Notes: generated by a model not told the origin, from the sequence alone. DNA of 62,916 nucleotides from Microcaldota archaeon (GCA_021828155.1 JAKAST010000003.1:1-62916); one strand, 5' to 3'. Shown: positions 1,699 to 54,595, counted from the first letter of the stretch. Numbers and translations are program-made.

Positions 1699-1751
1699 AA
1701 TTTCAAAGATGTGGTCGCTACTGTAGAACACTGCAAAAAGTTTATTCTGAT

Positions 1752-2238: not shown

Positions 2239-2260
2239 TTTTATAAATCTTGAGATTTAT
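2239..2260 (+). promoter_or_regulatory. Promoter with overlapping palindromic operator-like site
   Basis: TATA box TTTTATAAAT (2239-2248) about 35 nt before the ATG at 2279. A perfect 8-bp inverted repeat, ATAAATCT-TG-AGATTTAT (2243-2260), overlaps and follows it. Such a site could bind a repressor that blocks TBP or RNA polymerase. The binding role is inferred from position. Confidence 0.45.
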
Positions 2261-2278
2261 ACTAATTAAGGTAATTTA

Positions 2279-2476: not shown

Positions 2477-2496
2477 GCACGAAAAGGTAAGTAAAT

Positions 2497-2859: not shown

Positions 2860-2878
2860 CTGATGCTTTGGTGTTATT

Positions 2879-3268: not shown

Positions 3269-3763
3269 GCTACGCCAGCACGTTCATTCGCTTTGCTCAT
3301 TCACGTGGGCTAACGTGCCAATGCACTGCAAGCTTGCAACCAAGCAGTTAAAGGCACCTAAGCTTCTTAGAAAGAAGTTTAATCAAGAAGGAGCCGCTTT
3401 TTGGAGGGGGGCAAAAAGCGGCTTTCTGGTAAAACTCTCTCTTATGGGGCTTTTTGATGAAACTTTTTCCGAAAGTTTCTGCCCGAGCCCGCCGGTCGCC
3501 GCCGAAGGCGGCTTTGGAGGCGGGCGACGGACATAAGATCCAAAACTTAAAAGCTGCGTTAATATTTAATGGTTAGAAGTATTGAAGGAGAGGAGAAAGT
3601 AAATAAAAGCATTATGAGAGAGTGCTACTTAATCTGAATTTTAAAGAGCAGATTAAGCCTTAAAATAGATTAAGAACTTTATACGGAAGTGAAAATAAAG
3701 ATTTCGTGAAGAAGAGCATAAAAATAAAAGCAACTATTTAATTTAATATGTCCAATCAATAAT
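3269..3763. other. Non-coding region with a cluster of hairpins
   Basis: No convincing gene: the short open frame at 3315-3536 is low-complexity and spans the hairpins. Palindromes in order: CTTCTT-AGA-AAGAAG (3363-3377); an 11-bp perfect stem GCCGCTTTTTG/CAAAAAGCGGC with loop GAGGGGGG (3393-3403/3412-3422); GAAACTTT-TTCCG-AAAGTTTC (3459-3479); and nested GC-rich stems (CCCGCC/GGCGGG around GCCGCC-GA-AGGCGGC, 3488-3524). This GC-rich island in AT-rich DNA may be a terminator array, a structured RNA or a dispersed repeat. From 3541 to 3763 the sequence is purine- and A-rich with nothing recognisable. Confidence 0.6.
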
Positions 3764-4459
3764 ATGGAGACTTTAGAAGAATTAAAGTTAGATAGTACAT
3801 TTTTTGATAAATTTGATAGAAATATAGAAAATGGATTTATAATAGACCCATCTGTTTTTATGTCTTTGAGTCATTTTAAATTTATAGAGCACATAGATAC
3901 ACATAAAAGAGAGGTATACATATCAAAAAGTTTTTTTAATTTTATTAGTGAGACAAACAAAATTGATAGTTTAGTAAGAGAATTTAGGTATAAGAAAACA
4001 CTACAAATTGAAGAAGCAGTAAGCATAAATAATACCATAAAAAGCATAGTTAATTCCAATAAAATAAAAGCATATAGCTATAAAGATTCGAAAAATGAGA
4101 TGATAGAGAAATTTGCTCTTCAATCACCAGATACTTTTAATAGTACAAAACTTATAGATAAAGTTACAATGGAAATAGCTCTTGACGAGCTTAGCTTTTT
4201 GCTTGACCATTCAGCAATATTATCTGCGAATAGAATATTTTTAAATAAATTTGATAGATTTCTAAATATCCCCGGCATAGTCTTGGATTATACAGGTAAG
4301 TTTAGAGCACATAAAAAACAAATACTCAACAATATTGGTATAAATGAAGAGCGGCGTAATAACCTTAAGTTTATTTTGGCAATAATTGCAAAGATAAACC
4401 CACATCTACTAATAGGAAAACTTGGGGCTGGACTTGTTATTATAGCATTAGACCCATGA
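3764..4459 (+). CDS. Hypothetical protein, possibly PIN-like (231 aa)
   Basis: Very AT-rich gene with lysine- and asparagine-rich product. Residues 25-33 (GFIIDPSVF) followed by VYISKSFFNFI resemble the first strand and helix of a PIN-type ribonuclease, and EIALDELSFLLDHSAILSANR (about 137-157) could carry further acidic residues. The C-terminus (about 205-229) is hydrophobic and may be a membrane helix. The PIN assignment is weak. Toxin, nuclease or unknown element protein are all open. Confidence 0.55.
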   Translation: METLEELKLDSTFFDKFDRNIENGFIIDPSVFMSLSHFKFIEHIDTHKREVYISKSFFNFISETNKIDSLVREFRYKKTLQIEEAVSINNTIKSIVNSNKIKAYSYKDSKNEMIEKFALQSPDTFNSTKLIDKVTMEIALDELSFLLDHSAILSANRIFLNKFDRFLNIPGIVLDYTGKFRAHKKQILNNIGINEERRNNLKFILAIIAKINPHLLIGKLGAGLVIIALDP

Positions 4460-4677: not shown

Positions 4678-4752
4678 TTTTAAGTCGTCTAGTCCGGTCA
4701 AGGACGCGGCCCTCTCAAGGCCGAAACTCGGATTCAAATCCCGATGGGAGCG
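4678..4752 (+). pseudogene. tRNA-Glu(CTC)-like sequence lacking its 5' acceptor strand
   Basis: From 4685 the sequence follows a tRNA-Glu: D arm GTCT...GGAC, anticodon stem CGGCC/GGCCG with loop CTCTCAA (anticodon CTC), T arm TCGGA-TTCAAAT-CCCGA with one broken pair, 3' acceptor TGGGAGC and discriminator G. The seven bases where the 5' acceptor strand should be are TTTTAAG and cannot pair with TGGGAGC, which needs GCTCCCA. The sequence from 4726 on is the right copy of the 28-nt repeat. Most likely it is an attachment-site remnant (attR), built from a tRNA-Glu fragment carried by the element plus the host tRNA-Arg end. A split or trans-spliced tRNA cannot be excluded. Confidence 0.7.
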
Positions 4753-5445: not shown

Positions 5446-8376
5446 TCAGCCCTTCGCAACTCCGAGGGGCACGAGCCTGGCCACTATGTTAGATATCTTG
5501 GCGCCGGCCACGCTTGCCACCACGTCATCGACGTTCTTGTAGGCCCATGCAGCCTCTTCGCTGATGAGCTTCCGGCTCCTGACCCTGAATTCGACGTGCT
5601 TGCTGGCCAGATCGTTCATCGTCTTGGAAACGGGTATGTCGCGTATTGCCTGGTGCCTCGACATGAGCCTGCCTGAGCCGTGGCATGACGACCCGAAGCT
5701 CTCTTCCATTGCTTCCTGCCTGCCCGCGAGCACGTAGCTTGCGGTGCCCATGCTGCCCGGTATCAAAACAGGCTGGCCGACATCGCGGTATATTTTCGGG
5801 ACTGCCTCGTTGCCGGGGCCGAACGCCCTGGTAGCACCCTTCCTGTGCACGTAGAGCTTGGTGCGCTTCCCTTCCACTGTGTGCTCCTCCAGCTTCGCGA
5901 TATTGTGCGCCACGTCGTATACGAGTTCCATTCCCAGAGCATCGGCGCTCTTGCCGAACACCTCTGTGAAGCTCTTCCTTACCAAGTGAGTCATTATCTG
6001 CCTGTTAACGAACGCGAAGTTCACTGCGGAGCGCATAGCGGCGAGGTAGTTGTCTGCCTCCTTCGAGCCGATATATGCATAGAGCAGCTCCGGGTCGGGC
6101 AGGGTTATGTGCTCCTTTATCCTGTACTCCTCGAACGTGCGCAGATAGTCGCTGCACACCTGGTGGCCGTAGCCCCTGGAGCCGCTGTGGAGCATTACAA
6201 CCACCTGGTCCTTTTCAAGGGCGAAGGCCTCTGCTATGCCCTTGTCCATAATTTGCTCTACCTTTTGCACTTCCAGGAAGTGATTGCCTGCGCCGAGCGT
6301 GCCTAGCTGCGAAACCCCGCGCTTCTTTGCGAGGTCGCTCACCTTGTCGGGATTGGCGCCCTCCATAACGCCTGTTTCCTCGGTGCGGTCTGCGTCGTCC
6401 TCAAAGCCGAAACCCTTGGAGATTATATATGGCACACCCTCGGTCGCTACCCTCTCCAGGTCGTGCCTTGTGAAGCCCAAGCTTATCTTGCTGCCGACGC
6501 CACTCGGCACATTGTTGAACAGCCTGTCCATGAGCTGGGGAAGCTTGGGGCGCACGTCTTCCTCCTTCAGATTAGTTCTTATCAGCCTGACACCGCAGTT
6601 AGATACAACAATTCCATTCGCAATAAAATCGTGGTTTGGGTCGCCAACAGTGATATCGTATACATAGCCGTCATAGGGTTCTTCTGTTATTTTTATTATC
6701 TCGTCGAGCACAAAACCCTCGCTGATGTGTGAGGCTCTTGAAAACTCTTCGAAGTGTTCTTGTTTCCATATTCTGGCATCCCCGTTACGGCCCCACACCG
6801 AATGCTCGATGAAGCTAGCGTCTGTTTTTTCCACCTGCAGGGTTTGTATTATCTCTTCCGTGCTCCTGCCCGAATTATGCATCGCTATTGCAGTATATCT
6901 CATGTGGTTGCGGAGCTCCCTTTTGGCAAGTAGCCAATTTAGATATAGTGTTGCGAGACTCGCGAGAGTTGCTTTCGCTTTACAGTATTCGTATGACACT
7001 GTAGAGAAGAACTTTATCAGGTTACTGGTGTTCGATAGGACCTGGAGACGATGCCCGATTGTCCGCCCGTGTTTGCCATCGTACGCATAACCCTCTACTC
7101 TGGATATTGGAGAACATTCTATAGAAAGGGACTGCAACATCTCCTTCAAATCCTGCAGGAACTCTTTTGCGTTGTATGCGAGAGATTCAAGCTTGTTTAT
7201 ACCTACTGTGGGCGCCATAAAGTTGTATCCGTTATTTGTTATCGGCTTTGTCATCTCGGCGCCAAAATACGCTGCAAGGAAAAGGCGTTTCTGCCACCCC
7301 TCAGCCTTCTTAATCCAGTCTGGCACAGTATATGCTTGTATTGTTTTATTCCCAAGCGGCACACCCAGCACAGACATAAGAACGCCGAATGCACGCGAAG
7401 ATACATGCAGACTGTATTCTTCATTTTCGAATGTTTGCGTGCCGTATCTGGTTGTTATGCGGCAATGTCTCTTCCTTGAATGAATAGCTGATTTGACGCC
7501 TATGGAAAACAAATCTGCCTTCACGTCTTCTAAGTCCTCTCTCTTTCCATAGATGGAGGCTATCAACGTGGTCTTTGGTATTGTACCGTCCCCAAAAATA
7601 AGACCCATCACTTTAAGGAGCACAGGCACTTTCGGATCTGTAAGGCGCAAATCCACAAAACCAAGCCTTTTTAGCTTGTTCATGATCTGCGTCTTGGCAT
7701 GCCCGGCGCTGGTTATGCCTAAGTCGTCCAACGCTTTCCCCAGAGCGTCTGCACTCGCTAAAATGCTGTCTTTTGCTTTTGAGAATTCTACACCCTCGAA
7801 ACCTGTGACCATTACCCTTTTACCTATCGCAAGATGGTCCATGCGCACCATCCCCTCACCAGTTAGTATTGGGTGGTCGGCTGTTGCGGCCAGTTCCTTG
7901 CCGTGTTTGGTCTTTATCCTCAAAATTTTGCCTTCGTTTCCTTTCTTCAGAGATAGAAGCACATTTGCGGATGCGCCGATGCTCTTGGTTCTATCGTATA
8001 TCCTAACAGAATCTGACGAGATGGCGCTTATGCGCTCCCATGCACCGAATCTATTAAGCACCCTTGAGTCTTTGTGGAGGCAGTTAATATCGAAACCGAT
8101 TGCCCCGGGTGAAATTATGCCTCCGTCTGAAGGAAATGCCGCTACGCCGCCGATTGGTACAGAATATCCTTCGTGCCCATCCGGCATCACAAGCATCGCA
8201 TCTACTATGCTTGGAAGGGATGCCGTGTTTACTGCCTGGCTCAGCGTGCGGTCCTTACCCATCACCTTGATTACGTTATCGTTGGCGAAGATGCGCACCG
8301 GCACGTTCATGCCCTTTGACTGCTCTTTTCCTATCTCGTAAACAAAGTCGCTTACCTTTTTGAGCTCGAATCCCAT
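5446..8376 (-). CDS. rtcB: RtcB tRNA-splicing ligase precursor with intein
   Basis: 976-aa precursor. Residues 1-98 and 594-976 together form a normal RtcB of about 481 aa, the GTP- and Mn-dependent ligase that joins tRNA exons via 2',3'-cyclic phosphate/3'-phosphate ends. Motifs: GAIGFDIN and, after the intein, CGVRLIR (metal-binding Cys), GAGNHFLEV, HSGSRGYGHQ, AHNIAK, RKGATRAFG, and GSSCHGSGR with the guanylylated His. The intein sits between Asn98 and Cys594, directly before the catalytic metal ligand, so splicing is needed for activity. It is transcribed divergently from the ATPase operon. Start ATG 8376. Confidence 0.96.
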   Translation of the reverse strand: MGFELKKVSDFVYEIGKEQSKGMNVPVRIFANDNVIKVMGKDRTLSQAVNTASLPSIVDAMLVMPDGHEGYSVPIGGVAAFPSDGGIISPGAIGFDINCLHKDSRVLNRFGAWERISAISSDSVRIYDRTKSIGASANVLLSLKKGNEGKILRIKTKHGKELAATADHPILTGEGMVRMDHLAIGKRVMVTGFEGVEFSKAKDSILASADALGKALDDLGITSAGHAKTQIMNKLKRLGFVDLRLTDPKVPVLLKVMGLIFGDGTIPKTTLIASIYGKREDLEDVKADLFSIGVKSAIHSRKRHCRITTRYGTQTFENEEYSLHVSSRAFGVLMSVLGVPLGNKTIQAYTVPDWIKKAEGWQKRLFLAAYFGAEMTKPITNNGYNFMAPTVGINKLESLAYNAKEFLQDLKEMLQSLSIECSPISRVEGYAYDGKHGRTIGHRLQVLSNTSNLIKFFSTVSYEYCKAKATLASLATLYLNWLLAKRELRNHMRYTAIAMHNSGRSTEEIIQTLQVEKTDASFIEHSVWGRNGDARIWKQEHFEEFSRASHISEGFVLDEIIKITEEPYDGYVYDITVGDPNHDFIANGIVVSNCGVRLIRTNLKEEDVRPKLPQLMDRLFNNVPSGVGSKISLGFTRHDLERVATEGVPYIISKGFGFEDDADRTEETGVMEGANPDKVSDLAKKRGVSQLGTLGAGNHFLEVQKVEQIMDKGIAEAFALEKDQVVVMLHSGSRGYGHQVCSDYLRTFEEYRIKEHITLPDPELLYAYIGSKEADNYLAAMRSAVNFAFVNRQIMTHLVRKSFTEVFGKSADALGMELVYDVAHNIAKLEEHTVEGKRTKLYVHRKGATRAFGPGNEAVPKIYRDVGQPVLIPGSMGTASYVLAGRQEAMEESFGSSCHGSGRLMSRHQAIRDIPVSKTMNDLASKHVEFRVRSRKLISEEAAWAYKNVDDVVASVAGAKISNIVARLVPLGVAKG
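6598..8082 (-). mobile_element. Intein in RtcB with LAGLIDADG homing endonuclease
   Basis: About 495 residues (99-593 of the precursor). Block A starts with Cys (CLHKDSRVLNRFG); block B has TADHPILT with its His; block F/G reads VYDITVGDPNHDFIANG then VVSN, followed by Cys+1 of the C-extein. The penultimate residue is Ser instead of the usual His. The endonuclease has a clear first LAGLIDADG motif (VMGLIFGDG), but the second (LAAYFGAEM) has Glu where Asp is normal, so cleavage activity is uncertain. The intein is visibly less GC-rich than the exteins, consistent with transfer. Inteins at this DIN/CGVR site are known in other archaeal RtcB proteins. Confidence 0.92.
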
Positions 8377-41175: not shown

Positions 41176-41556
41176 TTAGGCTGCCTGCTCGGGCTTGCCT
41201 GCCAGCGCCGGCATGTAGCTCAGAAGCGACAGCAGGTACATCAGCACTATTATTGCCAGGCCGGCAAGCACCGCCATCAGGGAGCGTCCGGCAGCTATCA
41301 GCAGGCCCGCGAACAGCACGCCTATTACAACGTACGCTATCTGCTTCCTGACATAGGAGTCGCGCGCCTTTTTGTACTTCACATAGCACTCCTTGCACAC
41401 AACCAGCCTGTAGTTCTTCGCGTTCCTCGTTACGTTGCGCTTGAACCAGCGTATAGCCCGTATGACGTAGTCTTCCTGCACCTCTAGGCCATCAACGGCC
41501 CCGCCGCATATTATGCACCGCGGCTCGCTGGAAGCACGCTTTGAGTTTCTTGCCAT
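41176..41556 (-). CDS. Zinc-ribbon membrane protein
   Basis: 126 aa from ATG 41556 (in-frame TTG 41568 also possible). N-terminal zinc ribbon CIICGGAV and VCKECYVKYKK, then two helices (about 74-95 and 98-118). The cytoplasmic zinc domain plus membrane hairpin suggests an adaptor at the base of a membrane complex. Same strand, overlapping or touching the preceding gene. Confidence 0.6.
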   Translation of the reverse strand: MARNSKRASSEPRCIICGGAVDGLEVQEDYVIRAIRWFKRNVTRNAKNYRLVVCKECYVKYKKARDSYVRKQIAYVVIGVLFAGLLIAAGRSLMAVLAGLAIIVLMYLLSLLSYMPALAGKPEQAA

Positions 41557-41560
41557 AGCA

Positions 41561-41869
41561 TCAACCAAAATCTATAGTTGCCTCGTATATACGGCCCGAC
41601 TCTGCCAGCGCCTTCTGCTCGTCCGCCATGTTCATTGCGTCGTTTATCATTAGGTCGTCCATGCCGAGGCGCCTGAAAATGTTTGTCATGTCGGCCCTGC
41701 TCACGCCCGCCTTCTCCAGCATCGCCGCGAATGCCACTACGTTTATGTGCCGGTGGGCCTTCTCCATATCAGCGAAGAGCTTCTGTATGGAGCCCTCACT
41801 CAGCTTGTAGGCGATGAGCACGCGCCTCAGCTCAAGCCTGCTTATCGAGAACGTATCTTTGGCTGCCAT
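41561..41869 (-). CDS. Small helical protein coupled to the VirB4-like gene
   Basis: 102 aa from ATG 41869, chosen because GGAGGTG lies 6 nt upstream within the end of the ATPase gene. All-helical, charged (SISRLELRRVLIAYKLSEGS, VSRADMTNIFRRLGM), reminiscent of EF-hand-like or adaptor domains but without clear calcium loops. Notably, the C-terminus of the ATPase (LLISGGAQTNDIVGFLKSL) has a similar helical repeat style. Probably an ATPase partner. Confidence 0.6.
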   Translation of the reverse strand: MAAKDTFSISRLELRRVLIAYKLSEGSIQKLFADMEKAHRHINVVAFAAMLEKAGVSRADMTNIFRRLGMDDLMINDAMNMADEQKALAESGRIYEATIDFG

Positions 41870-41870
41870 T

Positions 41871-43385
41871 TCATGCACCTCCGGTCGCCGCAGATATTAT
41901 GCGGGTTATGAGCATATCCTCTATGCTCAGGCTCTTGAGGAAGCCGACTATGTCGTTGGTCTGCGCGCCGCCGCTTATCAGCAGCCGCACGAAGTCCAGC
42001 ATCTTTATCGACCTGCCCTGCGAGTCCACTGTGCTGAATATAGAAGTTATAGCGTCGCCGGGCACGTTGTACTCTATGAGCTTGTTCTTGAGCTCGTCGC
42101 CCTCGAACTGGTAGTCGCGCTGTATGAGCGCCGCTGAAAGCTCGCTCTGAGTGAGCACATCTGACATGTCGACGGTGTACACATATAGCGGTTCCTCGCC
42201 TTTTATGCGGTCCAGGACGAATACCTCCGGGAAGCGCAGCGCCGTCTGGAACGCCATGTCTACTGCGGCCTGGCCCACGCCGAACCTGCTTATCTCAGAC
42301 TTTATGAACTCCGAGAAGTTGAGCGATCCTTGCAGGTAGTTCATGAACTTCTCGAAGCGTATGCGGAGTATGAATGTGGTGCCCACATTCGAGAATATCG
42401 CCTCGTTTATGTCGGTGGGGTTCTGTGACGCGACTATGAGCCCGAACTGGTACTTCCTTCCCTCCCTTACTATTGTAACCGCGTCGCTTTTCTCGTCGCT
42501 CGCAACCTTCCAGGCCTCGTCGAGCACTACCAGCGTCTTCAGACCCTTGCCCTCGGCATAACCCTCGAAGCGCATGCGCTCCTTCAGGGTCTGCAGTATG
42601 AAGAGCGCAGCCAGCGCCCTGAATTTCTCGTCAGGCAGGTTCGACAGGTCTATGTCTACGAGGCCGGAGTTGGCAAGCTCCACCATGTCGAGCGTGCTCT
42701 TCCTGGCAAAGTAGTCTTCGCCCTCGCGCGCGAACTGCCTGAGCCTGTAAATCGCGTTCTCGAGCTCGGCCGGGTACTCGTAAGTGCCGTCCTGCAGGTG
42801 CTCCTCGAGTAGAGATATTGCATCTTTGAGCGTCGGCGCATCTTTGTTGGGAGGCGGCTTCTCTGATATTATGAAGCCGGCGTTGACGTATGCCTGCTCG
42901 AGCGCCTCCTCGGTGAGCCTGCGCTGCTCAGGGTATTCGCTTATGTCGGTAAGTATGTCGAACGAGGTTATTATCTGCTTCACGCGGTCTAAGGGCTTCA
43001 TGCCCGAGAGGTCCATTATGTTCAGGTAGTCGCCCTTGCCGAGCGAGATCACGGTGCCTCCGCTCTGGCGCACCCATGCCTTGTATTCCGAAGCCCAGTC
43101 TATTATCACGGCATTCGTGCCCCAGATGTAGCTGGCGCGTATCAGGAACGTCTTGACGAAGTAGCTCTTGCCCGCGCCTGTTATTCCGACTACCGCCATG
43201 TGCGGGTTGGTTAGATTTGCGAATGACCAGCTGAACGGCACCTTGAATATCTTAGTGGTGCCTATGAATATTGCCTTGAGCGGCTCGTTTATCAGTATGT
43301 TGGCCGGCGGCTCAGGCGGCCTCGAGAAGAAGGCGCGCTTCGCTATCTCGTTGCTCATTATGTGCTGGAACTTGAGCAGCGTCAT
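41871..43385 (-). CDS. VirB4/HerA-type secretion ATPase
   Basis: 504 aa. Walker A GITGAGKS at 67-74, Walker B TLVVLDEAWK at 284-293, followed by REGRKYQFGLIVASQNPTDI, the arrangement of VirB4/TraC/CedB ATPases of the HerA-FtsK superfamily. It lacks a membrane segment and the long VirB4 N-terminal domain; its first 60 residues are short. It likely drives DNA or protein transfer through the membrane components encoded upstream. A C-terminal helical part (about 410-504) may bind the small helical protein. Confidence 0.88.
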   Translation of the reverse strand: MTLLKFQHIMSNEIAKRAFFSRPPEPPANILINEPLKAIFIGTTKIFKVPFSWSFANLTNPHMAVVGITGAGKSYFVKTFLIRASYIWGTNAVIIDWASEYKAWVRQSGGTVISLGKGDYLNIMDLSGMKPLDRVKQIITSFDILTDISEYPEQRRLTEEALEQAYVNAGFIISEKPPPNKDAPTLKDAISLLEEHLQDGTYEYPAELENAIYRLRQFAREGEDYFARKSTLDMVELANSGLVDIDLSNLPDEKFRALAALFILQTLKERMRFEGYAEGKGLKTLVVLDEAWKVASDEKSDAVTIVREGRKYQFGLIVASQNPTDINEAIFSNVGTTFILRIRFEKFMNYLQGSLNFSEFIKSEISRFGVGQAAVDMAFQTALRFPEVFVLDRIKGEEPLYVYTVDMSDVLTQSELSAALIQRDYQFEGDELKNKLIEYNVPGDAITSIFSTVDSQGRSIKMLDFVRLLISGGAQTNDIVGFLKSLSIEDMLITRIISAATGGA

Positions 43386-43427: not shown

Positions 43428-44255
43428 TCACATCTGCTGGTCGAACGCCGACGCTATATCTGCGAACGAGTTCGGCATAGAGAAGTTGTACCTGAATAGG
43501 GTGTACAGCTCCCTGCCCACTATGCGGCTTAGCTGTAGGTCAAGCGAGCTCAGGGCTATCTGCAGCTGCTTTATCTGCGCGTCAAGCGCGTCCGTTGCCG
43601 CCTTCTCGGTTATGCCTACAGCCGTAGTCTCTGTATACATGAGCGTTGCTATCGGCTTCTCGCCCTGCGATATGCGGTCCATCTTAGCCTGCTCTATGTT
43701 TACGCGCCGCTGAAGGTCCGTAACAGTGACCTCGTTTGAGCCGCTCTGCAGTGCCCTTGACAGCTGGAACTCCTGGAACGAGCGCCTGCCCTCTATCTCA
43801 TCGCGCACCTTCTGCACGTCCATGCCGCACGAGAGCACGTGGAACTTGTATGGAAATCCTAGGCTCATTACAGCCCTCTCCCACATCTCCGGCGCTGCTG
43901 CCAGGCGTACCTCATCTTCCTCGGCAGCAGTTTCCTCCTTGAATGTGTATGCGAACAGGTTTGCGGTGATGTAGCCCGTGGCGTAGAACAGCCCGTTGAC
44001 GTTCTTGATTATTGCATTCTGGCCCTTCGTTATCGTGTAGTTCCTTGCAGGCTGGAACGTCATTCCCAGCACAGAGGTCAAAGCAGGCATGAGCAGGAAG
44101 TCGGCCCAGTTCATGGCTATGATGAATACGAGAGCGATGACAACCAGCACGAGCCCTATTATGGTGTATATGCCGTGCAGTGAGGTTAGTATGGCGAAGC
44201 TCAGCACTATTATCACGAGCGAGAAGATGAGGTATATTATGCCTTCCTCGTCCAT
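43428..44255 (-). CDS. Two-TM membrane protein with cytoplasmic domain (first paralogue)
   Basis: 275 aa. Two N-terminal helices (about 7-26 and 29-50), then a cytoplasmic part with an alpha/beta segment (NYTITKGQNAIIKNVNGLFY, ATGYITANLF) and coiled coil (TDALDAQIKQLQIALSSLD). Layout and neighbour resemble the VirB3 plus VirB4-N-terminal module of type IV systems, here separate from the ATPase. Its ATG abuts the stop of the 272-aa gene. Confidence 0.7.
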   Translation of the reverse strand: MDEEGIIYLIFSLVIIVLSFAILTSLHGIYTIIGLVLVVIALVFIIAMNWADFLLMPALTSVLGMTFQPARNYTITKGQNAIIKNVNGLFYATGYITANLFAYTFKEETAAEEDEVRLAAAPEMWERAVMSLGFPYKFHVLSCGMDVQKVRDEIEGRRSFQEFQLSRALQSGSNEVTVTDLQRRVNIEQAKMDRISQGEKPIATLMYTETTAVGITEKAATDALDAQIKQLQIALSSLDLQLSRIVGRELYTLFRYNFSMPNSFADIASAFDQQM

Positions 44256-45168: not shown

Positions 45169-46329
45169 TCATATGAAGCCGCGCATGCGTCCGCCCATCC
45201 TGCTCGCTCCGCCTATAAGGTCAGCGATCTGCACAACGAAAGCGTATGTGACCGCTATGATAAGGCTGGGATAGAACAGTATAAGGAGCCAGAAGCTGCT
45301 CATTGCGGACTGCACCTCCTGTATGGCTGTCACCTCTGGGCTCGATGCTGATATAGTAGTCTGGAAGTTGCTGGGTGAGGAGGCGAAGCGCTGCAGCTGC
45401 ACCGAAGCGCCGTAGAGTGCCGACGTAACTTGCGGCGAGGTGAAGTAGTATGCCACCGAGAACAGCGTGGGCATTATCAGGTAGAAGCCAAGAGCCAGCG
45501 CGATCATCATGCCGCCCAGCGCGCGCGTAGGTATGAGCATGCGCAGCACAATTCCGGGTATCAGAAACACGGGTATGGCCGCTACGGCGAAGAATATTAT
45601 AAGGTAGTATTCAGCATACAGAGCCAGGATACCGTCGTTTATGAAGCCTGATATGGTTGCGATCGGCTCCACTACGAACATGTCAAGCGGAAGTTGCACG
45701 GCCTGGACTATCGAACCGATTGTACTCTTTGGAATTGGTAGTTCAGGTACAAACACGGTCACATCGATGGACGATATATAGAACCAGAAGTAGTATGTGT
45801 CGTACATTGCGGTGTAGACGCTCTCAGCCGACCCTATGGTGTTTGTTATCAGGTAAAGCGATGTGGCGTAGGGGTTTATGGGCCCTACTATCATCGATGG
45901 TACGAGGCCGAACATCACCGCGCTGATGTACAGAAATAATCCAACTATTATCATGCTGGCCACGGCCTCGTACATCTCGCCTATGCCGAAGTTCCTGAGC
46001 CTGTCGTTCTTGAACCCCGCTCCCACTGCGAATATCGAGGCCGCAAGAAGCATGGCTATCAGCACTACGATTATCGCTATGGGCGCGTCGCCCTTCCAGG
46101 CGTTGTAGACCTGGGTGTTTATCGGGCAGTACCATGGTGCGTTCACGCTTATGTTATGCGCAAGCGATGGAGTCAGCAGGCCGCAACCTGTTGCACTGGT
46201 AGACGACCCGGACGGCCCAGTAAGCGGCGATGTCGGGATCCTTGCACTGGCGTATGGCGCACTGATCAGCATGGCCAGAAGTGCAGCTGCGAGGAGCGCC
46301 GCAACCAGTGCAAGTTTCGTCTTATCCAT
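45169..46329 (-). CDS. VirB6/CedA-like polytopic membrane protein 6
   Basis: 386 aa. Signal-like N-terminus (LALVAALLAAALLAML), external loop, then six or more helices. Shared features: amphipathic Glu-containing helix FGIGEMYEAVASMII and the signature GIVLRMLIPTRALGG followed 13 residues later by Pro. Last of the six tandem paralogues and 8 nt from the previous one. The C-terminal tail is basic (RMGGRMRGF). Comparable in topology to VirB6/TrbL of type IV secretion and CedA of the archaeal Ced system; that identity is inferred. Confidence 0.75.
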   Translation of the reverse strand: MDKTKLALVAALLAAALLAMLISAPYASARIPTSPLTGPSGSSTSATGCGLLTPSLAHNISVNAPWYCPINTQVYNAWKGDAPIAIIVVLIAMLLAASIFAVGAGFKNDRLRNFGIGEMYEAVASMIIVGLFLYISAVMFGLVPSMIVGPINPYATSLYLITNTIGSAESVYTAMYDTYYFWFYISSIDVTVFVPELPIPKSTIGSIVQAVQLPLDMFVVEPIATISGFINDGILALYAEYYLIIFFAVAAIPVFLIPGIVLRMLIPTRALGGMMIALALGFYLIMPTLFSVAYYFTSPQVTSALYGASVQLQRFASSPSNFQTTISASSPEVTAIQEVQSAMSSFWLLILFYPSLIIAVTYAFVVQIADLIGGASRMGGRMRGFI

Positions 46330-46336
46330 AATATCA

Positions 46337-47968
46337 CTATACGAAGCTGGTCATCATGCTCATGAAGTCTATTCTCTCGCCTATCGCTTTCGAGAAGTCA
46401 ACTATAAAAGCGTCTACTATTATGAAGTTCAGGAAGGGCACGAACGTGAGGCCCATTATCAGATAGCCGAGCTTCGTAACGAATGCAGACAGGTATGCAG
46501 GTATGGAGTTAGTGAAGACTATCCCCACAATCAGCTGCACCGCGTTTGATATGTCAACTGCAAGGTTCGCAGTCATAAGCTGCGGGTCTATGAATCCGTA
46601 AGTGATGGTAACTAGCATGGGGTATATCAGGCCCACGCCGAGCCCTATGGCTATCATCGCCCCGCCGAAGGTGCGCGTGAACCCGAAGGTGCGCGCCACT
46701 ATGCCTATAGTGACGAAGAGCGATAGGAACAGCAACGAGCTCGAGAGCAGTATGACCTGCACCTGGTTGAGGACCAGCGCAGTCAGAAGGGCCGAAGCCG
46801 CAATGCTCAAGATGTCTGCCGTACCGCCGGGCACCAGGCTGTCCAGCTTGGTGCTTATCCCTACATTCGGCTGGGTTGGTATGTGGAAGTCCAACGCTAT
46901 GCCAGGAGAGAAGCCGATTATGTAGCCCGATATTATGAACGTGTACAGGTAGCCATATGCACTGTTGGTGAACACTCCGATGTCGCACTGCGAGAGATTG
47001 AATATTGTGTTTATGTTAGGGGCAGCGCATGTGCCAGGTAGAAGACCAACGCTGGCGTACGCGTGCTGCGGGTTCAGGAAGAACATGTAGGAAAGAGCGG
47101 CGAAGGCCAGCAGCAGCACTATCGATAATATGGCCTCATATATCTGCAGGCGCGCCCAGCCCTTTGCATTCTGGCTTGCTATCAGGCCGCTCAGGGCGTA
47201 GACCAGCGCGGCCACGGATATTATTAGGAGCGTGGCTATCAGCGCTATGCCGAACCAGTCCATTGGATTGAACGGCAGATTCGTATGCTGTGCGGTTCCG
47301 GTGCCAGATGCTGCATAGACCACGAGCGTGGTGGATGTTGAATAGCCTGTAGCTGTGTCTAGCGACGTGATGTTGTAGCTGCCTGCTGCAGCGTCAGGTA
47401 TCGTATACGAAACAACACCGGTGCCTGCACCGAACAGCTGGCCGTTGATCTCAAGCTCGTCGAAGTCCGTGCTCGGGTTGCCAGTTGCCTGCAGGAGAAT
47501 GTTGGTTCCCTGCGCTGCTGGATTGGGGCTCACGGAAAGCGAGGGTGCATTGGTGGCGCTCTGGGCCGCTGTGCTATTCACTATAAGCGCTATCGTGTTT
47601 GCGATTCCGGCGGATAGGTCACGGCTCGTGATGACGTAGCTGCCGTACGGTGCGCCGGCTGTCAGTGTAGTCACTACAGAGCCGGTGCCAGATTTCAGGA
47701 TTTGCGGAGTTGAAGCACCAGGCGGAGTCTCAAGGAGCTCAAGGCTGTCGGCGGGATTGCTGGCTATCGCTTGTATTGCCACGGTCTGGCCGGGCGCCGC
47801 TGGATTCGGGTATACTATCAAGGAGGGCGGAGCCTGCGCCGATGCCAACTGGAAGACCAGCAGCGCTGTGACCAGCATTGCAAGGAGCAGCGCCGCATGA
47901 CCTGCAGGGCTAAGCCTGGACAAGCGCGCACCGCGCACTGTAACAGGTTCCGCTGCGTAAGCAATCAT
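46337..47968 (-). CDS. VirB6/CedA-like polytopic membrane protein 5 with two Ig-like domains
   Basis: 543 aa. N-terminal helix, then two external Ig-like repeats (each beginning with the SVSPNPAAQG/IVYPNPAAPG pattern, about 50-140 and 143-222), then the polytopic part with LQIYEAILSIVLLLAF and signature GIVARTFGFTRTFGG plus Pro 13 residues on. The extracellular domains could contact another cell or a pilus. Overlaps the previous gene by 4 nt (ATGA type). Confidence 0.77.
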   Translation of the reverse strand: MIAYAAEPVTVRGARLSRLSPAGHAALLLAMLVTALLVFQLASAQAPPSLIVYPNPAAPGQTVAIQAIASNPADSLELLETPPGASTPQILKSGTGSVVTTLTAGAPYGSYVITSRDLSAGIANTIALIVNSTAAQSATNAPSLSVSPNPAAQGTNILLQATGNPSTDFDELEINGQLFGAGTGVVSYTIPDAAAGSYNITSLDTATGYSTSTTLVVYAASGTGTAQHTNLPFNPMDWFGIALIATLLIISVAALVYALSGLIASQNAKGWARLQIYEAILSIVLLLAFAALSYMFFLNPQHAYASVGLLPGTCAAPNINTIFNLSQCDIGVFTNSAYGYLYTFIISGYIIGFSPGIALDFHIPTQPNVGISTKLDSLVPGGTADILSIAASALLTALVLNQVQVILLSSSLLFLSLFVTIGIVARTFGFTRTFGGAMIAIGLGVGLIYPMLVTITYGFIDPQLMTANLAVDISNAVQLIVGIVFTNSIPAYLSAFVTKLGYLIMGLTFVPFLNFIIVDAFIVDFSKAIGERIDFMSMMTSFV

Positions 47969-49071
47969 ATCAATCCCTTCAGCGTATTTTTAGACGACAG
48001 GCTCGGTGCCCCGAGGAAGTCGCCAACCGTTTCAGCGAAATCAAACGCTATTATTAAGCTGAGGGCCAGCGCGAACACAGTGTAGAACGAAGGCTCCAGC
48101 ACGTTCTGCACAAACATCGATATGAAGTACGTGGCTGTAATCGATTGCACCCCCGAATTCGCGAGCGCGGCGAGCGGGCTGAACGGGCTGAACTGGCTGG
48201 TCAGCTGGCTCACTGCGCTGCTTAGGCCTACGGACGACACCGCCGCCAGGGCAACGCTGTTCACAGAGAGCGAAAAGTAGAGCAGTAAAGGGAACAGCAC
48301 GTAGAAGCCGAGGAACATGCCCAGGAAGGCGCCGCCAGCTGCACGCGTCCAGGGAATCGTCCTTAGCACTATGCCCAGATAAAGGAAGACCGGAAACACA
48401 GAATAGATGAGCGACAGGAAGAATACGATTCCGAGGCTGAACGCGATGAGGGCGCCGGTAACTGACATGAGTATGTTGAGCAATCCCACGAGAGTCAAGT
48501 AACCGGCGAGCGGCTTGAACGACACGCCGAAAAGGTCCGGCTCTAGATTGATTGCCAGGTTGCCAAGAAGGTCTGTGAGGTCGTACGTCGCTCCGATCTC
48601 TATCAGCGGATATACCAGGTTCAGGGAGGTGTCAGTCAGCCTTGTGCATGCGCCGTAGAATATGCTGCTATTGAACGCATTGCCTGCTATATGTAGCACG
48701 CTGGCCGGCCCCGACACTGTGCCGTTTGAAGCCGACACTGTGCCGATGAATATAAGCACTATGAGCGCCGTTATGAGTATCTCGCCGAGCTCTGTCCTGC
48801 TGAACCTTGTCAGCTTGTCTATCTTCAGCGCAGCGCCCAGCGCATATGTGATCCCTGCCACAGTGACCATGATTAGTATCAGTATCAGCGCCACAGGCAG
48901 GAGGCTGCCTAGCGCCGATGGGTACGAGAGCACGGTCGGGACGTTTGATATTGCAGTGTTGCAGAAGCCTGCTGCGCTTGCCGAATTTGCCCCTGGAAGC
49001 AGAGCTGTGATTGCAAGAAGCGCGGCCAAGGCGCCGATTGCGATGCGAACCTTTCCATTCATGCAGCTCAC
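47965..49071 (-). CDS. VirB6/CedA-like polytopic membrane protein 4
   Basis: 368 aa. Signal-like start (IGALAALLAITALLPG), helix at 55-80, Glu helix SRTELGEILITALIV at about 91-105, signature GIVLRTIPWTRAAGG at 233-247, then Pro 13 residues later. No large external domain, so it may represent the basic form of the family. Overlaps both neighbours by 4 nt. Confidence 0.76.
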   Translation of the reverse strand: MSCMNGKVRIAIGALAALLAITALLPGANSASAAGFCNTAISNVPTVLSYPSALGSLLPVALILILIMVTVAGITYALGAALKIDKLTRFSRTELGEILITALIVLIFIGTVSASNGTVSGPASVLHIAGNAFNSSIFYGACTRLTDTSLNLVYPLIEIGATYDLTDLLGNLAINLEPDLFGVSFKPLAGYLTLVGLLNILMSVTGALIAFSLGIVFFLSLIYSVFPVFLYLGIVLRTIPWTRAAGGAFLGMFLGFYVLFPLLLYFSLSVNSVALAAVSSVGLSSAVSQLTSQFSPFSPLAALANSGVQSITATYFISMFVQNVLEPSFYTVFALALSLIIAFDFAETVGDFLGAPSLSSKNTLKGLI

Positions 49072-50525
49072 ACTAGTCTCGATAGCCCGGCGAGGGCCGT
49101 GTCGCCCCCGAGCACCCCGGAAAGCCCTATTATGCCTGTAAGCACCACGAGTAAGTTTATCAGGGGCAGGAAGTACGCAGCAATGCCGTCAACACCGTAA
49201 ATCCTCACGAAGTCGTATAGCAAATTGAGCGACTGGTCGCGGCTGCAGTCAATCGGGGCGTCGAGGAACGAGGGCACAGAATTCGGCGAAGCTCCTCTGA
49301 TTATTGCAATAACCTGCGTTCCCGGAAGCAGGAAGTAGCCGATGACCGCAAGTTCCGCGTCTGTAAGCTTGCCCTGATAGGGCCAGCAGCCGTCATGCTG
49401 CGCCACAGTAGACATGCTCGGCAGAGAGTAGAAGTTCGTCAGGTAGGGCGTCTCGTTGGACGGATCGGCGCTGGCCGGGATGAATGTCAGGTTTGACGTG
49501 AATATGTCGTTGAATCCGTATGCGGCCGGCGTGCTGTTGGCCGCGAACGTGTATGGCGCGCTAGACTGCTGGGAGTTGTACCCCATGAGGCCCGCGAGGC
49601 CGTTGCCCAGAGCAAGGTACTCTATTGAGAACAGGGCAGGATAGAAGAGTATGCCGCCGACAGCGAACGCTATCAGCAGGCCGCCCAGCCTGCGCGTGAG
49701 GAACACTGCCCGCAGTATTATGCCGCCGAACAGCAGGAAGGGCCATGCATACAGGAATATGGCCGTGATTGTGAGCTGCGCCATGAAGGATTCGACTGCC
49801 GTAATCATCAGAGTGCCCAAGGCGCCAAAGCCGTCGTATATCATCTTGAGGCCCGCGAACGGAGTTATGCTGAACTTCATGGTCAGTAAGGGCGGGACTA
49901 CCGGTATGAGGCATTGTATTGGAATCAGCTCGCCTGGCGCTATGCATAGATTTATGTTGGGGCTCATAGTTGAAAGAAATCCCAGCCATCCGTCGACCAG
50001 GAAGGCGTCGTTCAGTTGCGTCGCGGTCTGGTTGGTAAGGTTGGCGAGCACCACGCCCGTAGCAGCGAGCGGGTAGTCTATCATGCTGGTGAAAGAGGGC
50101 GAGCTGGACTGCGCCTGGCCTGCTATGGAGCAGAGGCCCGGGAACGAACCAGAGCTAATAAGCAGTGAGGTTGAAGACGACAGCGCATCCAAATTGGAGT
50201 TCGCGTGCAGGCCGTTGCATAGGCCGGTTATGGTAGAGGTGTTGAGCAGCGTGTACGAATTGGCGACAGAGAAGAACATGTAGCCGACGACCAGGAGCAG
50301 CGCCAGCATGGCCATCACCATGATGCCTGTGCCGATCAGCTGGTACCCCTCGCTGCGCGCTGCGGCCTTGACGGTGTTGTTGTTCAGCAGCGAGCCAATC
50401 ATGTACCATGCCCCGACCAGCACGGCATCTATCAGCAATGCCAGGCCCACAAGCGGCATGAGCGCGGATTTTACGGAACTGTATGAGGTTATTGAAAGCA
50501 TCGCTGCAATAATTGTCGGTAGCAT
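49068..50525 (-). CDS. VirB6/CedA-like polytopic membrane protein 3
   Basis: 485 aa. N-terminal helices, Glu helix AARSEGYQLIGTGIMVM, two long external loops (about 85-200 and 320-445) with Cys pairs, signature GIILRAVFLTRRLGG followed 13 residues later by Pro, and C-terminal helix. The external loop after the signature (PYTFAANSTPAAYGFNDIF onward) is absent from the shorter paralogues. The next gene overlaps its end by 4 nt. Confidence 0.75.
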   Translation of the reverse strand: MLPTIIAAMLSITSYSSVKSALMPLVGLALLIDAVLVGAWYMIGSLLNNNTVKAAARSEGYQLIGTGIMVMAMLALLLVVGYMFFSVANSYTLLNTSTITGLCNGLHANSNLDALSSSTSLLISSGSFPGLCSIAGQAQSSSPSFTSMIDYPLAATGVVLANLTNQTATQLNDAFLVDGWLGFLSTMSPNINLCIAPGELIPIQCLIPVVPPLLTMKFSITPFAGLKMIYDGFGALGTLMITAVESFMAQLTITAIFLYAWPFLLFGGIILRAVFLTRRLGGLLIAFAVGGILFYPALFSIEYLALGNGLAGLMGYNSQQSSAPYTFAANSTPAAYGFNDIFTSNLTFIPASADPSNETPYLTNFYSLPSMSTVAQHDGCWPYQGKLTDAELAVIGYFLLPGTQVIAIIRGASPNSVPSFLDAPIDCSRDQSLNLLYDFVRIYGVDGIAAYFLPLINLLVVLTGIIGLSGVLGGDTALAGLSRLV

Positions 50526-50533
50526 TGTTCCAC

Positions 50534-51697
50534 CTACAGGCTGCTCCAGAAGCTTGCCGCGCCCTCTATGCCAGAATCAAGAGCCCTTGTGAGCCCCATT
50601 GCGAAACCTATCGTTATCGAGATGTTGACCGCGAAGAGCACCACCGCTATGAATATGAACTGGGATATCTGCGTTATGAGCGTATGCAACTGGCTCATCA
50701 TGACAGGAGGCGAGAGGCTCGTCAGATAGGTGCCCGCGGAGCTGCCGAGGAAGTTGCTGAGCACGCTTAACGGCACGGCGACCGGCCCGAGCGTCACCTC
50801 CCCAGATAGCGGTATATTGGAGAACAGGCTGGTTGGCAGCGATGCCAGAGCGTAGGTGCTGCCGAGGCAGCTGGTGCATCCGTATTCCGGATTTGAGGGA
50901 CTGAAGATCCACGACACAGCATAGCTGTCGAAAGCTATAGTCAGCGGGTAGATTATGTAGAGCGCAATTGCTATGGCGAGCACAGCATTGGCGGTTGAGC
51001 GCAGGCGCCCGCCGGTAAACGAGAGCGAGCGCAGGGCTATTGCTATGGGCAGTAGCACTACGAACGCGGTATACTGTATTATGGGAAGGGCAAGGTACTG
51101 GAGGAACAGCATGCCTACGGTGAGAGTCACTAAAGGCGCGAGCACTGCAAAGAAGTCATCAGCCATAATTCCATAGGTTATGCCTGCGTCATAGCCGTAC
51201 GTGACATTGGCTTCGAAGATCGGCGTGTCTATCACTGAAATGTCTGGTATATCAAGCTGGGTGCCCAAGGCCTGGAATATGCGCGCGTCTATCGAGTAGG
51301 TTATGCCCAGCGAGTATATCGTAGTGAGAAGCCGCAGGCCAGTGTTGAGCGCGAGGTTGCCCACGTAGTAATCGGCGAACCCGAACGGAGACAGCCCGGA
51401 GGGCACCCCTGCCGCGGGTATCAGGCTCCGCGCCATCGACGTGCTGACGCTGCATGCGATTTGCGATGTCGCAAGGAGCGCGGCTATGATGATTACGCTG
51501 ATAAGCAGTTGTGGTATCTCGGCCCTTGCGGCCTCGGTCAGCTTGCCCCTTGTGGCTCCTGGAAGGAGCTTGCCGAGCATGTAGATTAAAGCGAGCACCA
51601 TGAACGAGACGAGTATAACTATGTAATTGATGCCTAGGAAGCCGGTCACGTAGCTGCCGCCACCGCCGTACGCGCAGGTGCTGGCTATCAGAGTCAT
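50534..51697 (-). CDS. VirB6/CedA-like polytopic membrane protein 2 (divergent)
   Basis: 387 aa. Same topology: Glu helix AARAEIPQLLISVIII, then the signature region in altered form AIALRSLSFTGGRLRS with the later YIIYPLT proline kept. It is the only one of the six without the full GG motif. CxxC in the external loop (GCTSCLG). Probably a paralogue with a distinct role in a hetero-oligomer. Confidence 0.72.
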   Translation of the reverse strand: MTLIASTCAYGGGGSYVTGFLGINYIVILVSFMVLALIYMLGKLLPGATRGKLTEAARAEIPQLLISVIIIAALLATSQIACSVSTSMARSLIPAAGVPSGLSPFGFADYYVGNLALNTGLRLLTTIYSLGITYSIDARIFQALGTQLDIPDISVIDTPIFEANVTYGYDAGITYGIMADDFFAVLAPLVTLTVGMLFLQYLALPIIQYTAFVVLLPIAIALRSLSFTGGRLRSTANAVLAIAIALYIIYPLTIAFDSYAVSWIFSPSNPEYGCTSCLGSTYALASLPTSLFSNIPLSGEVTLGPVAVPLSVLSNFLGSSAGTYLTSLSPPVMMSQLHTLITQISQFIFIAVVLFAVNISITIGFAMGLTRALDSGIEGAASFWSSL

Positions 51698-51706
51698 TCC
51701 ATCAAC

Positions 51707-53308
51707 TCATGCGATTTTGAACTTGCCTATGCCCAGCTTCAGGCTGCCGCCGAGCATGCGCGCTATCGCGTCGCCCACGGCAAACGTTATCACTATATCA
51801 AATATGAGCAGTATAAGCTGTATGACCAAAGGAAAGACGTAGCCCAGTATGAGGTTCAGCGATGGGAAGATGCTGGCAGTGGGCAGCACTGTGTGCCACC
51901 CTGCATCGAAGCCGTATATGCCGTAGGTTCCGCCTGTGAAAACCGATACAACAGTAAGCACGGCGTTTACCGGGGTGCAGAGCGTTATGTCCAGGAAGCC
52001 GCTGGCTATGTTAACGCCTGTGCTGGCTGTGTTGGTTGCGAAGTTGCATGCCAGGGTGGTGGGAGTAGGCTCGATGCTCGGCAGGTAGTTCGATATAGGA
52101 AGGTTGAACATCAGTAGCAATGCCGGGAACACCAGCGATATGGATATGCCTATGGCCAGCATTGTGCCGCCGATCCCGCGCATGAACGGTATGGCGCGAA
52201 GCACTATGCCGAGCGGCACGAAGAAGGTCAGGCCGAGGAGCGCGAACTCAACCAGCTTGTCGTACAGCAGCTGGAATATTGTGAGTATTGGTATGACAAC
52301 AACGCCAAGGATGTCCTTCACGAACGACGATCCAGGCAGCGCGAGACTAGATTCTACGTAGCTGGACTTGAACAGCGTGTACGTGCCCCCGAACTGCACC
52401 GAGCCGACGAACGGTATTGGCAGATATGGTATCCAGAGCTCTGCCGTGAAGCTCTTGGCGAAGGATATGCCCTCCGCAAGCCCGAATATGGCAGAGAATG
52501 CGTTGTTCGCGTTTGTCAGCTGCTGGCCGATATAGCTGTTCAGGTCTGCGCTGTAGACGCCGGCCAAGTTGGCGGAAGCATAAGCACTCAGTGTGCTTGA
52601 ACTGCCGGCCACCGGCTGATTGCCGGTAAAGGCATACGCAACTGCGCTGAGCACAGCCAGCACAGCGAATATCGACATAACTATGAGGACGCTCTTCGTC
52701 ACCTCCCAGAGCTCGGCCTTGTACCAGCCCTTGAAGCCGCTGATGTTTATCACCTCGCCTATCATGAACGCTAGCCCTATGAGCAGGAACGAGAGCATCA
52801 GCCCTATGAGCGCTATCGGCACAGAGTTGGTTATGCACGAGACCGCATCGCGCATCGGAAACGTGCTTGCGGTCGAAGTTGGCATCGCCGATATCGTGGT
52901 AGTGTTTGAGGTGCCGCTGCTGACCAGATAAAGCACAGTCGGAGAACCTGCGGCATAGTTGCCTATGTAAAAGTTAATCTGCGTCTTGCCTGACGCTATC
53001 GGCGAGGTTATGGTTATTTCAGGCGGAGGCACGAGCGTAGGCGGCGGCGGTGCAGGCGGTACCGATGTATACGCTGTGAACAGCTCGCTCACCATTGTGG
53101 GTGATGATACATGGCCCACTGTGTACGCAACATGGTATTCGCCCACGGGCAGGCTGGACGACGCGGAGTACGATACATTAACGGCGGGCGAGGGCGCAAT
53201 ATGGCCGAATAAGGGACAGAACGGCACTTGCAGCGACTGGGCGCCCGCGCTGGGCACTAGAACGAAAAGAAGTGCAGTGAGCAAGAGGATCGGCGCGACC
53301 TGTTTCAT
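51707..53308 (-). CDS. VirB6/CedA-like polytopic membrane protein 1 with Ig-like domain
   Basis: 533 aa. Signal peptide (PILLLTALLFVLVPSAGA), external beta-sandwich with a proline hinge (about 25-150, VPPAPPPPTLVPPPE at 83-97), membrane part from 162. Glu helix KAELWEVTKSVLIVM at 197-211; signature GIVLRAIPFMRGIGG at 367-381 with Pro395. The first of the series. TATA box ATTTATAAAT at 53331-53340 would place the transcript start at about the ATG, so the mRNA is probably leaderless. Confidence 0.78.
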   Translation of the reverse strand: MKQVAPILLLTALLFVLVPSAGAQSLQVPFCPLFGHIAPSPAVNVSYSASSSLPVGEYHVAYTVGHVSSPTMVSELFTAYTSVPPAPPPPTLVPPPEITITSPIASGKTQINFYIGNYAAGSPTVLYLVSSGTSNTTTISAMPTSTASTFPMRDAVSCITNSVPIALIGLMLSFLLIGLAFMIGEVINISGFKGWYKAELWEVTKSVLIVMSIFAVLAVLSAVAYAFTGNQPVAGSSSTLSAYASANLAGVYSADLNSYIGQQLTNANNAFSAIFGLAEGISFAKSFTAELWIPYLPIPFVGSVQFGGTYTLFKSSYVESSLALPGSSFVKDILGVVVIPILTIFQLLYDKLVEFALLGLTFFVPLGIVLRAIPFMRGIGGTMLAIGISISLVFPALLLMFNLPISNYLPSIEPTPTTLACNFATNTASTGVNIASGFLDITLCTPVNAVLTVVSVFTGGTYGIYGFDAGWHTVLPTASIFPSLNLILGYVFPLVIQLILLIFDIVITFAVGDAIARMLGGSLKLGIGKFKIA

Positions 53309-54175: not shown

Positions 54176-54595
54176 TCATGGTGCGGTAACATTGTGGCAG
54201 ATACTGCTATAGAACGCCGAGGTAGAGGTAAAGCCCTGACCTGTTATAGCGCCGAGTATCGGCCCTGCGAGCATTGAGATTATAACTCCTATTATGCCTC
54301 CGAATATCAGGCCCATGCCGTAGCCCTGTAGTGTGCCCTTGCTCTGGCCTGGCAGGACGTGCCCAATGGCGTACATCACAGCCCCGACAAGCAGCAGCAC
54401 CAGGCCAAGGATGAACACGCCGGTGTGCACCGCGCCGTAAAGCTGGCATAGCGGATATGCTATAGTAGAATTAGTTATGTTGAGGCTTGTTGTGCCGCCT
54501 GCTGCCAGAAGAGAGGTAAATGATCCAAACACTGCAAGTAAGTATACAAGTTTTAGCATTCTGCCAAACCATGTCCTAAGTTCAAGTACGGTCAC
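54176..54595 (-). CDS. VirB2/TrbC/CedA1-like small two-TM protein
   Basis: 139 aa from GTG 54595, or 127 aa from ATG 54559, which begins directly with a signal peptide (MLKLVYLLAVFGSFTSLLAA). Mature part: two hydrophobic helices (GVFILGLVLLLVGAVMYAIG and LIFGGIIGVIISMLAGPIL) joined by a short polar glycine-rich loop (HVLPGQSKGTLQGYG), flanked by Cys residues. This is the layout of conjugative pilins VirB2/TrbC and of archaeal CedA1. First gene of the locus. Assignment rests on topology and context. Confidence 0.68.
   Translation of the reverse strand: MTVLELRTWFGRMLKLVYLLAVFGSFTSLLAAGGTTSLNITNSTIAYPLCQLYGAVHTGVFILGLVLLLVGAVMYAIGHVLPGQSKGTLQGYGMGLIFGGIIGVIISMLAGPILGAITGQGFTSTSAFYSSICHNVTAP

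Follow-up and report, generated by a model that had tools for sequence, protein, structure and literature searches.

Six ordered VirB6-like paralogues in Micrarchaeota suggest a hetero-oligomeric pore in a chromosomal type IV secretion-like translocon

A 62,916-nucleotide stretch of a Candidatus Micrarchaeota genome (GCA_021828155.1 JAKAST010000003.1:1-62916, referred to here as the window) carries six tandem genes for VirB6-like membrane proteins, P1 to P6. The same operon holds genes for an ATPase of the VirB4/CedB kind, for a candidate VirB2-like pilin, and for two paralogues, B and C. It probably encodes a domesticated type IV secretion system (T4SS)/Ced-like translocon in which a VirB6-type pore has turned into an obligate hetero-oligomer, of which a hetero-hexamer is the simplest form. 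The narrower proposal, that the pore is an obligate hetero-hexamer containing each of six subunits once, in a set order, and that it derives from a single-copy ancestor of a kind some members of the phylum still have, has a somewhat better than even chance of being correct. A hetero-hexameric pore is the best-supported reading because the count is always six, the slots are orthologous, the six genes of an array tend to be inherited together, and a single-copy relative exists in the phylum.

The six tandem open reading frames reported in a preliminary description of the region (45169-53308) are present on the minus strand. Neighbouring genes are separated by 7-9 nucleotides or overlap by 4 nucleotides, placing P1-P6 in one operon. 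Each gene is assigned a slot according to its position in the order of transcription:

51707..53308, minus strand: P6, slot 1 of the VirB6-like array; predicted extracellular N-terminal domain; motif GIVLRAIPFMRGIGG
50534..51697, minus strand: P5, slot 2; member with a degenerate GG, retaining Arg, Arg, and Pro; motif IALRSLSFTGGRLRSTAN
49068..50525, minus strand: P4, slot 3; motif GIILRAVFLTRRLGG
47965..49071, minus strand: P3, slot 4; GTG start; 4-nucleotide overlaps with P4 and P2; motif GIVLRTIPWTRAAGG
46337..47968, minus strand: P2, slot 5; N-terminal tandem repeat of ~90 amino acids, Ig-like candidate; motif GIVARTFGFTRTFGG
45169..46329, minus strand: P1, slot 6; motif GIVLRMLIPTRALGG

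P1, P2, P3, P4, and P6 match exactly the signature first used to unite these proteins, G-I-[VI]-[LA]-R-x5-R-x2-G-G-x13-P, and P5 has the degenerate form noted for it, keeping not only the proline but also both arginines. Across 43 arrays, the two arginines and the proline are near-invariant in every slot, and the GG pair is mostly missing in slot 2, which contains P5, throughout the phylum. When the six proteins are aligned, homology runs along their full length rather than through the motif alone. Slot profiles align pairwise over about 280-305 columns (HHalign, about 100% probability, E 1e-34 to 1e-47), as does the profile of the single-copy relatives (about 280-305 columns, about 100% probability), whereas an unrelated membrane family of the same operon reaches 0.2% against the slot profiles. 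The proteins are thus true full-length paralogues, even though P2-P6 are only 19-27% identical to P1. No further copy of the family was found elsewhere in the window's genome, which is 84.7% complete.

The loops that bear the motif and a conserved glutamate are short and contain Lys or Arg; the loops that alternate with them are, for the most part, long, with many Ser, Thr, and Asn residues. By the positive-inside rule, this pattern suggests that the motif faces the cytoplasm. The glutamate, once thought to be common to all six proteins, occupies its first position in five of them; P2 has Gln there and a Glu three residues on. Two Ig-like outer domains had also been proposed. Repeats are indeed found in the outer N-terminal part of P2 (residues 41-232; two tandem units of about 90 amino acids, 40% identity, E 1e-14) and an N-terminal region of P6 is weakly similar to them, but no Pfam Ig model matches P1-P6, so that an Ig-like fold for these domains is no more than plausible.

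The array is not peculiar to this genome. In a sample of 295 genomes from the phylum, many of them incomplete and grouped here under family codes of the f1-f25 series, arrays were read individually from stop-to-stop open reading frames in fetched regions scored with the family profile, and those cut by a contig or locus end, with fewer or partial copies, were left out of the counts. Each of the 48 complete arrays, which come from 41 genomes and at least 16 families (f1-f9, f11, f14, f18, f19, f21, f23, and f25), contains exactly six copies. A separate phylum-wide tally of six per genome was set aside because that search scored no more than six candidates in each genome. The homologues are therefore not unrelated single genes; the same ordered six-gene array recurs across the phylum. 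Seven genomes (G003, G005, G009, G060, G119, G141, and G215, from families f3, f5, f6, f8, f14, f19, and f21) contain two arrays of six each. No copy of the paralogue family was seen in the listed genomes of f10, f13, and f15.

Phylogenetic evidence for the antiquity of the slots comes from counting the changes of slot label needed on a tree. A tree of 294 proteins needs 6 changes, the minimum for seven labels, and a 261-protein set needs 7, compared with a mean of 169 and a least value of 160 in shuffles. An IQ-TREE tree of 99 proteins, in which long branches are common and finer relations are unsure, needs 9 versus 65 in shuffles. In the 294-protein tree, slots 1, 2, 3, 5, and 6 and the single copies take one change each and slot 4 takes three, which would follow if the root or other slots fell inside slot 4. 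Sequence comparison thus identifies the slots as ancient orthologous groups in a fixed order and, because their labels need minimum changes, indicates that duplication to six predates the split of the sampled families and that the order has not changed since. The repeated duplication that had been suggested is borne out by full-length paralogy and by the ordered arrays found phylum-wide. The counts in 48 arrays, together with slot orthology, exclude a chance motif, a recent duplication, and an assembly artefact.

Arrays also appear to travel as units. The split uniting seven same-type arrays (from G003, G005, G009, G141, G202, G178, and G023) is recovered in all six single-slot trees of 21 arrays that come from families other than f1, f2, and f11. 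Pairs of genomes with two arrays agree at all six slots in 7 of 21 cases, where 0.65 would be expected by coin, and 99 of 126 slot calls follow the majority. Given that the pairs are non-independent and distant pairs are noisy, these data support, but do not prove, a tendency of arrays to pass on as blocks whose members would work together.

Single-copy systems, consisting of one VirB6-like gene, one B/C gene, and one ATPase gene, usually together with a pilin-like gene, occur in families f17, f18, f7, and f4, and in f18, f7, and f4 they lie beside six-copy arrays in the same genome. Each f17 genome (G073 and G075) has one family copy next to one B/C-like gene and the ATPase, and G073 adds a pilin-like gene. 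Genomes G078 and G023 have a compact second system composed of a pilin-like gene, one VirB6-like gene, one B/C gene, a second ATPase, and the coiled-coil gene H described below; a system of the same make-up lies at a contig end in G004. All three of these genomes also carry six-copy arrays. All six single copies examined form one clade in the 294-protein tree. The single copy may be the ancestral state, depending on where the root lies.

The remaining genes of the operon flank the array as follows:

54176..54595, minus strand: VirB2/CedA1-like pilin candidate, operon gene 1; 139 amino acids, signal-like helix and two transmembrane helices
53352..54113, minus strand: T, conserved polytopic membrane protein; 253 amino acids, about 6-7 transmembrane helices
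44256..45074, minus strand: C, paralogue of B; two transmembrane helices and a cytoplasmic domain
43428..44255, minus strand: B; two transmembrane helices (VirB3-like place) and a predicted VirB4 N-terminal-like domain
41871..43385, minus strand: VirB4/CedB/HerA-like ATPase; P-loop near residue 66
41561..41878, minus strand: S, small conserved soluble protein of 105 amino acids; weak ATPase likeness in profile searches only
41176..41568, minus strand: Z, 130 amino acids; CxxC-type zinc-finger-like N-terminus and two transmembrane helices
40379..41107, minus strand: H, 242 amino acids; coiled coil and winged-helix-like C-terminus

Most f1 and f2 loci keep the order pilin-like gene, T, P6, P5, P4, P3, P2, P1, C, B, ATPase, S, Z, H. 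The position of T is kept in most of these loci; T is located elsewhere in f8 and in f11, where the array order is that of f1 and f2. Z is conserved in the six-copy system, and H is kept in six-copy systems and in most single-copy systems. S was considered as a relative of the ATPase, but pairwise BLASTP was negative despite the weak profile likeness.

The ATPase matches DUF87 (2.5e-15), AAA_10, and P-loop_TraG above Pfam cut-offs, and its best NCBIfam match is CedB (7.9e-19). Because that score falls under the strict equivalog cut-off, the protein is taken as a relative of CedB and not as CedB itself. Solved structures matched by the enzyme include the VirB4-like 4ag5 (2.1e-11) and HerA. It is present in 248 of the 295 phylum genomes (E under 1e-20), and a search of named genomes for the array-adjoining form returned only metagenome-assembled genomes labelled Candidatus Micrarchaeota, or in a few cases Marsarchaeota, at 57-88% identity. 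Plasmids yielded only distant TraC-like and similar ATPases, none reaching 80% coverage, and thus no sign of a mobile element; neither the ATPase nor P4 matched any viral contig. One ATPase, from G060 (L131:2626-5829, plus strand), contains an in-frame intein with a LAGLIDADG domain at residues of about 320-827.

An iterated hidden Markov model joins the pilin candidate to short proteins at the same place in relatives. One family member (L107:10123-10437) and the protein at L064:13329-13643 match TrbC/VirB2 (1.8e-5) and T4SS_pilin (2.8e-5), all below Pfam cut-offs; the window candidate has no direct pilin match and is linked by family membership only. Several of these pilin-like relatives also hit the six-paralogue profile, within its N-terminal third (E to 3e-8). 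Across 11 genomes, matches to the VirD4-type model PF10412 are short and mostly P-loop-sized, and DprA was not found, a result that neither proves nor excludes DNA uptake.

Structure prediction offers a further link to T4SS components. An AlphaFold2 model of P1 built on 35 sequences (predicted local distance difference test score, pLDDT, 78; predicted template modelling score 0.69) places the motif at the turn between long helices 202-264 and 266-317. In a Foldseek search with this model, the R388 TrwI/VirB6 chains rank 6, 7, and 9 among 350,542 chains, and VIA-align superposes P1 and TrwI/VirB6 with a Z of 10.6 (236/261 residues, root-mean-square deviation 6.2 Å). The ATPase reading frame starts about 60 residues before the P-loop and has no room for a VirB4 N-terminal domain, which was therefore sought in B. 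B and C are paralogues with two N-terminal transmembrane helices each, which sit where, we assume, VirB3 would be in a VirB3-VirB4 fusion. A predicted model of B from 29 sequences (pLDDT 79) aligns with residues 219-384 of R388 TrwK/VirB4 in five entries (VIA-align Z 8.2-11.2, 152-163 residues, root-mean-square deviation 3.2-3.5). B did not match the VirB4 N-terminal domain by sequence, and the predicted fold is moderate evidence that B carries the VirB4 N-terminal-like domain absent from the ATPase.

Several results weigh against the translocon interpretation. The Foldseek E-value is near 0.2 for the P1-TrwI/VirB6 match and 0.17 for the B-TrwK match (ranks 5-7). The P1-VirB6 fold match falls short of what would be safe in a comparison of helical bundles and is only suggestive, because unrelated helical bundles reach such Z values. 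Neither P1-P6 nor five single copies matched Pfam TrbL (PF04610) at E up to 1, and in HHalign comparisons with eight VirB6 proteins from plasmids the probability stayed under 1%. Likewise, no NCBIfam Ced model matched the pore proteins tested, the six-paralogue profile found no relevant match among PDB sequences, and profiles A3 and A4 did not match the single sequences of TrwI and TrwK, respectively. As the sequence tests for VirB6 failed, the family name is withheld from P1-P6, which are VirB6-like in place and predicted fold and not VirB6 family members. Outside f1, f2, and f11, and in one f1 genome (G017), the array is located away from the ATPase, so that their pairing there is inferred. 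Finally, solved VirB6 rings are pentamers (PMC9259494, PMC12857230), onto which six copies do not map simply.

This five-fold symmetry invites an alternative in which five copies form a VirB6-type hetero-pentamer and slot 2 (P5) supplies a dedicated partner that stays out of the ring, for example as a plug, an adaptor, or an assembly factor. The loss of the motif GG in most slot 2 proteins would fit, as would the pentameric VirB6 rings solved so far and the five VirB6 paralogues of Rickettsia (PMC2653234). However, slot 2 retains both arginines and the proline, aligns over its full length with the others, and has a within-slot identity similar to that of other slots, and T4SSs show six-fold symmetry in VirB3 and in the VirB4 ring (PMC9259494, PMC12857230); the arrangement is judged unlikely. 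The extent of divergence between slots (about 18% identity), the outer domains that differ from slot to slot, and an earlier proposal that Rickettsia VirB6 paralogues seed diverse uptake channels (PMC2653234) might instead point to six separate homo-oligomeric channels of differing specificity with one ATPase in common. Such channels should show single gains and losses, yet 48 of 48 arrays keep all six genes in order and blocks tend to be co-inherited, making this explanation distinctly improbable.

It is also conceivable, at a very low probability, that the operon builds a membrane platform for a surface structure, such as a pilus or cell-cell attachment organelle, that moves neither DNA nor protein. 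The pilin-like gene and large outer domains are compatible with such a platform, as is the fact that no true VirD4-type coupling protein was seen and no DprA was found in the 11 genomes. On the other hand, the ATPase belongs to the CedB/VirB4/HerA translocase group, and Ced, which is described as comprising only homologues of VirB2, VirB4, and VirB6, moves DNA (PMC11868833, PMC9905601).

In the favoured model, the product of the operon would be a T4SS/Ced-like translocon of the micrarchaeal envelope, chromosomally encoded ("domesticated"). The VirB4/CedB-like ATPase would form a ring at the cytoplasmic face, tethered to the membrane by B and C through a two-helix anchor and a domain that in bacterial VirB4 is the N-terminal part, and the VirB2-like pilin would build the outer conduit. 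One VirB6-like pore subunit would have been copied to six, each copy with its own fixed place, and most simply one of each P protein would enter a hetero-hexameric ring facing the six-fold ATPase. At its cytoplasmic mouth, the pore is probably lined by the two near-invariant arginines from each copy, which would gate it or grip the passing polymer; up to twelve arginines at the inner mouth could bind a phosphate backbone or contact the ATPase/B/C collar. Contact with the partner cell probably falls to the outer domains, which are variable and in some cases plausibly Ig-like. We infer the ring, its stoichiometry, the role of the pilin, and translocation itself, including that the machine moves DNA or protein.

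Members of the phylum Micrarchaeota are tiny archaea, and those in culture live on other cells. A machine of the VirB4/CedB kind, found in at least 84% of the sampled genomes even though many are incomplete, is a prime candidate for the link through which DPANN archaea exchange DNA, metabolites, or proteins with their hosts. If the model is true, the hetero-hexameric pore would give T4SSs a counterpart to MCM2-7 or the proteasomal Rpt ring, and a six-fold pore would match the six-fold ATPase, in contrast to pentameric bacterial VirB6, calling the universality of five-fold VirB6 symmetry into question. The six-slot array would be a clear natural case of a homo- to hetero-oligomer transition, one that the coexistence of single-copy, six-copy, and two-times-six genomes in the phylum makes accessible to ancestral reconstruction and biochemistry.

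Other observations concern the surroundings of the arrays and the rest of the window. Two ATPase loci (L056 and L071) have no adjoining array in the sequence examined, although arrays are usual in close relatives. In several families, one array has a class I (leucyl-type) tRNA synthetase gene as its direct or near neighbour (L091, L100, and L106). Giant proteins flank some arrays (L092:1224-5519, L095:10673-15595, L096:12939-18542, and L097:14750-18850); they are 1366-1867 amino acids long with one or two transmembrane helices and no Pfam match, and may possibly be adhesins or effectors of the system. Within the window, an RtcB tRNA ligase gene (5446-8376, minus strand) is split by an intein (Pfam Intein_splicing, residues 119-593). 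Positions 1-4000 have a G+C content of 0.36, compared with about 0.55 across most of the window, include a tRNA-Arg at 562-635, and are possibly an integrated element. A partial tRNA at 4687-4744 (plus strand), detected by Rfam and missed by ARAGORN, possibly contains an intron.

In the open literature searched, with subscription literature and preprints outside its scope, no earlier description of a Micrarchaeota T4SS or a six-copy array was found, but several known systems share parts of its design. The nanohaloarchaeal SPEARE system of giant VirB4/TraG-domain proteins is likewise from DPANN archaea and is a proposed T4SS acting on a host; there, the ATPase domain is fused to a giant Ig-domain protein, and VirB6 goes unmentioned (PMC10266531). 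Patescibacteria (Candidate Phyla Radiation, CPR) resemble Micrarchaeota as an episymbiotic, small-genome phylum with a near-universal VirB4-type system (PMC12102498). That system is a relative of the MPF-FATA class whose VirB6 is detected by VirB6/PrgH profiles, and a six-copy array was not seen in the passages considered. The R388/Trw system (TrwI/VirB6, TrwK/VirB4, TrwM/VirB3, and TrwL/VirB2) provides the folds that the P1 and B predictions resemble, those of TrwI and the TrwK N-terminal domain. Its VirB6 is a homo-pentamer (PMC9259494) and its VirB4 a single polypeptide, which here is split into the ATPase and B/C; no outer-membrane parts were found here.

The preliminary description contrasted the array with the usual single VirB6, a contrast that does not hold generally because tandem paralogues have a precedent in Rickettsiales (rvhB6a-e; virB6-1 to -4), with four or five. 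These are also highly diverged and clustered with virB3 and virB4, and they too carry large extensions and belong to a reduced, host-dependent lineage (PMC2653234, PMC7648143). The Rickettsiales copy number is four or five with some loss (virB6e) rather than an invariant six, and the VirB6/TrbL domain is profile-detectable there and not here. Ced/Ted of Thermoproteota (CedA, CedA1, and CedB; TedA, TedC, and TedB; CedD and CedE) is likewise a chromosomal archaeal relative of T4SSs, with a VirB4-like ATPase, a VirB6-like polytopic protein, and a two-helix pilin. The Ced pilin is similar to the N-terminal part of its pore protein (PMC9905601), as are some pilin-like relatives described here to that of theirs, and Ced is described without a VirD4-type coupling protein. 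VirB3 and VirB8 homologues are stated to be absent in archaea (PMC11868833), so that B and C are without a described counterpart. Whereas the VirB6-like proteins of Ced number one or two (CedA and CedE; PMC11868833), the Micrarchaeota array has a fixed set of six.
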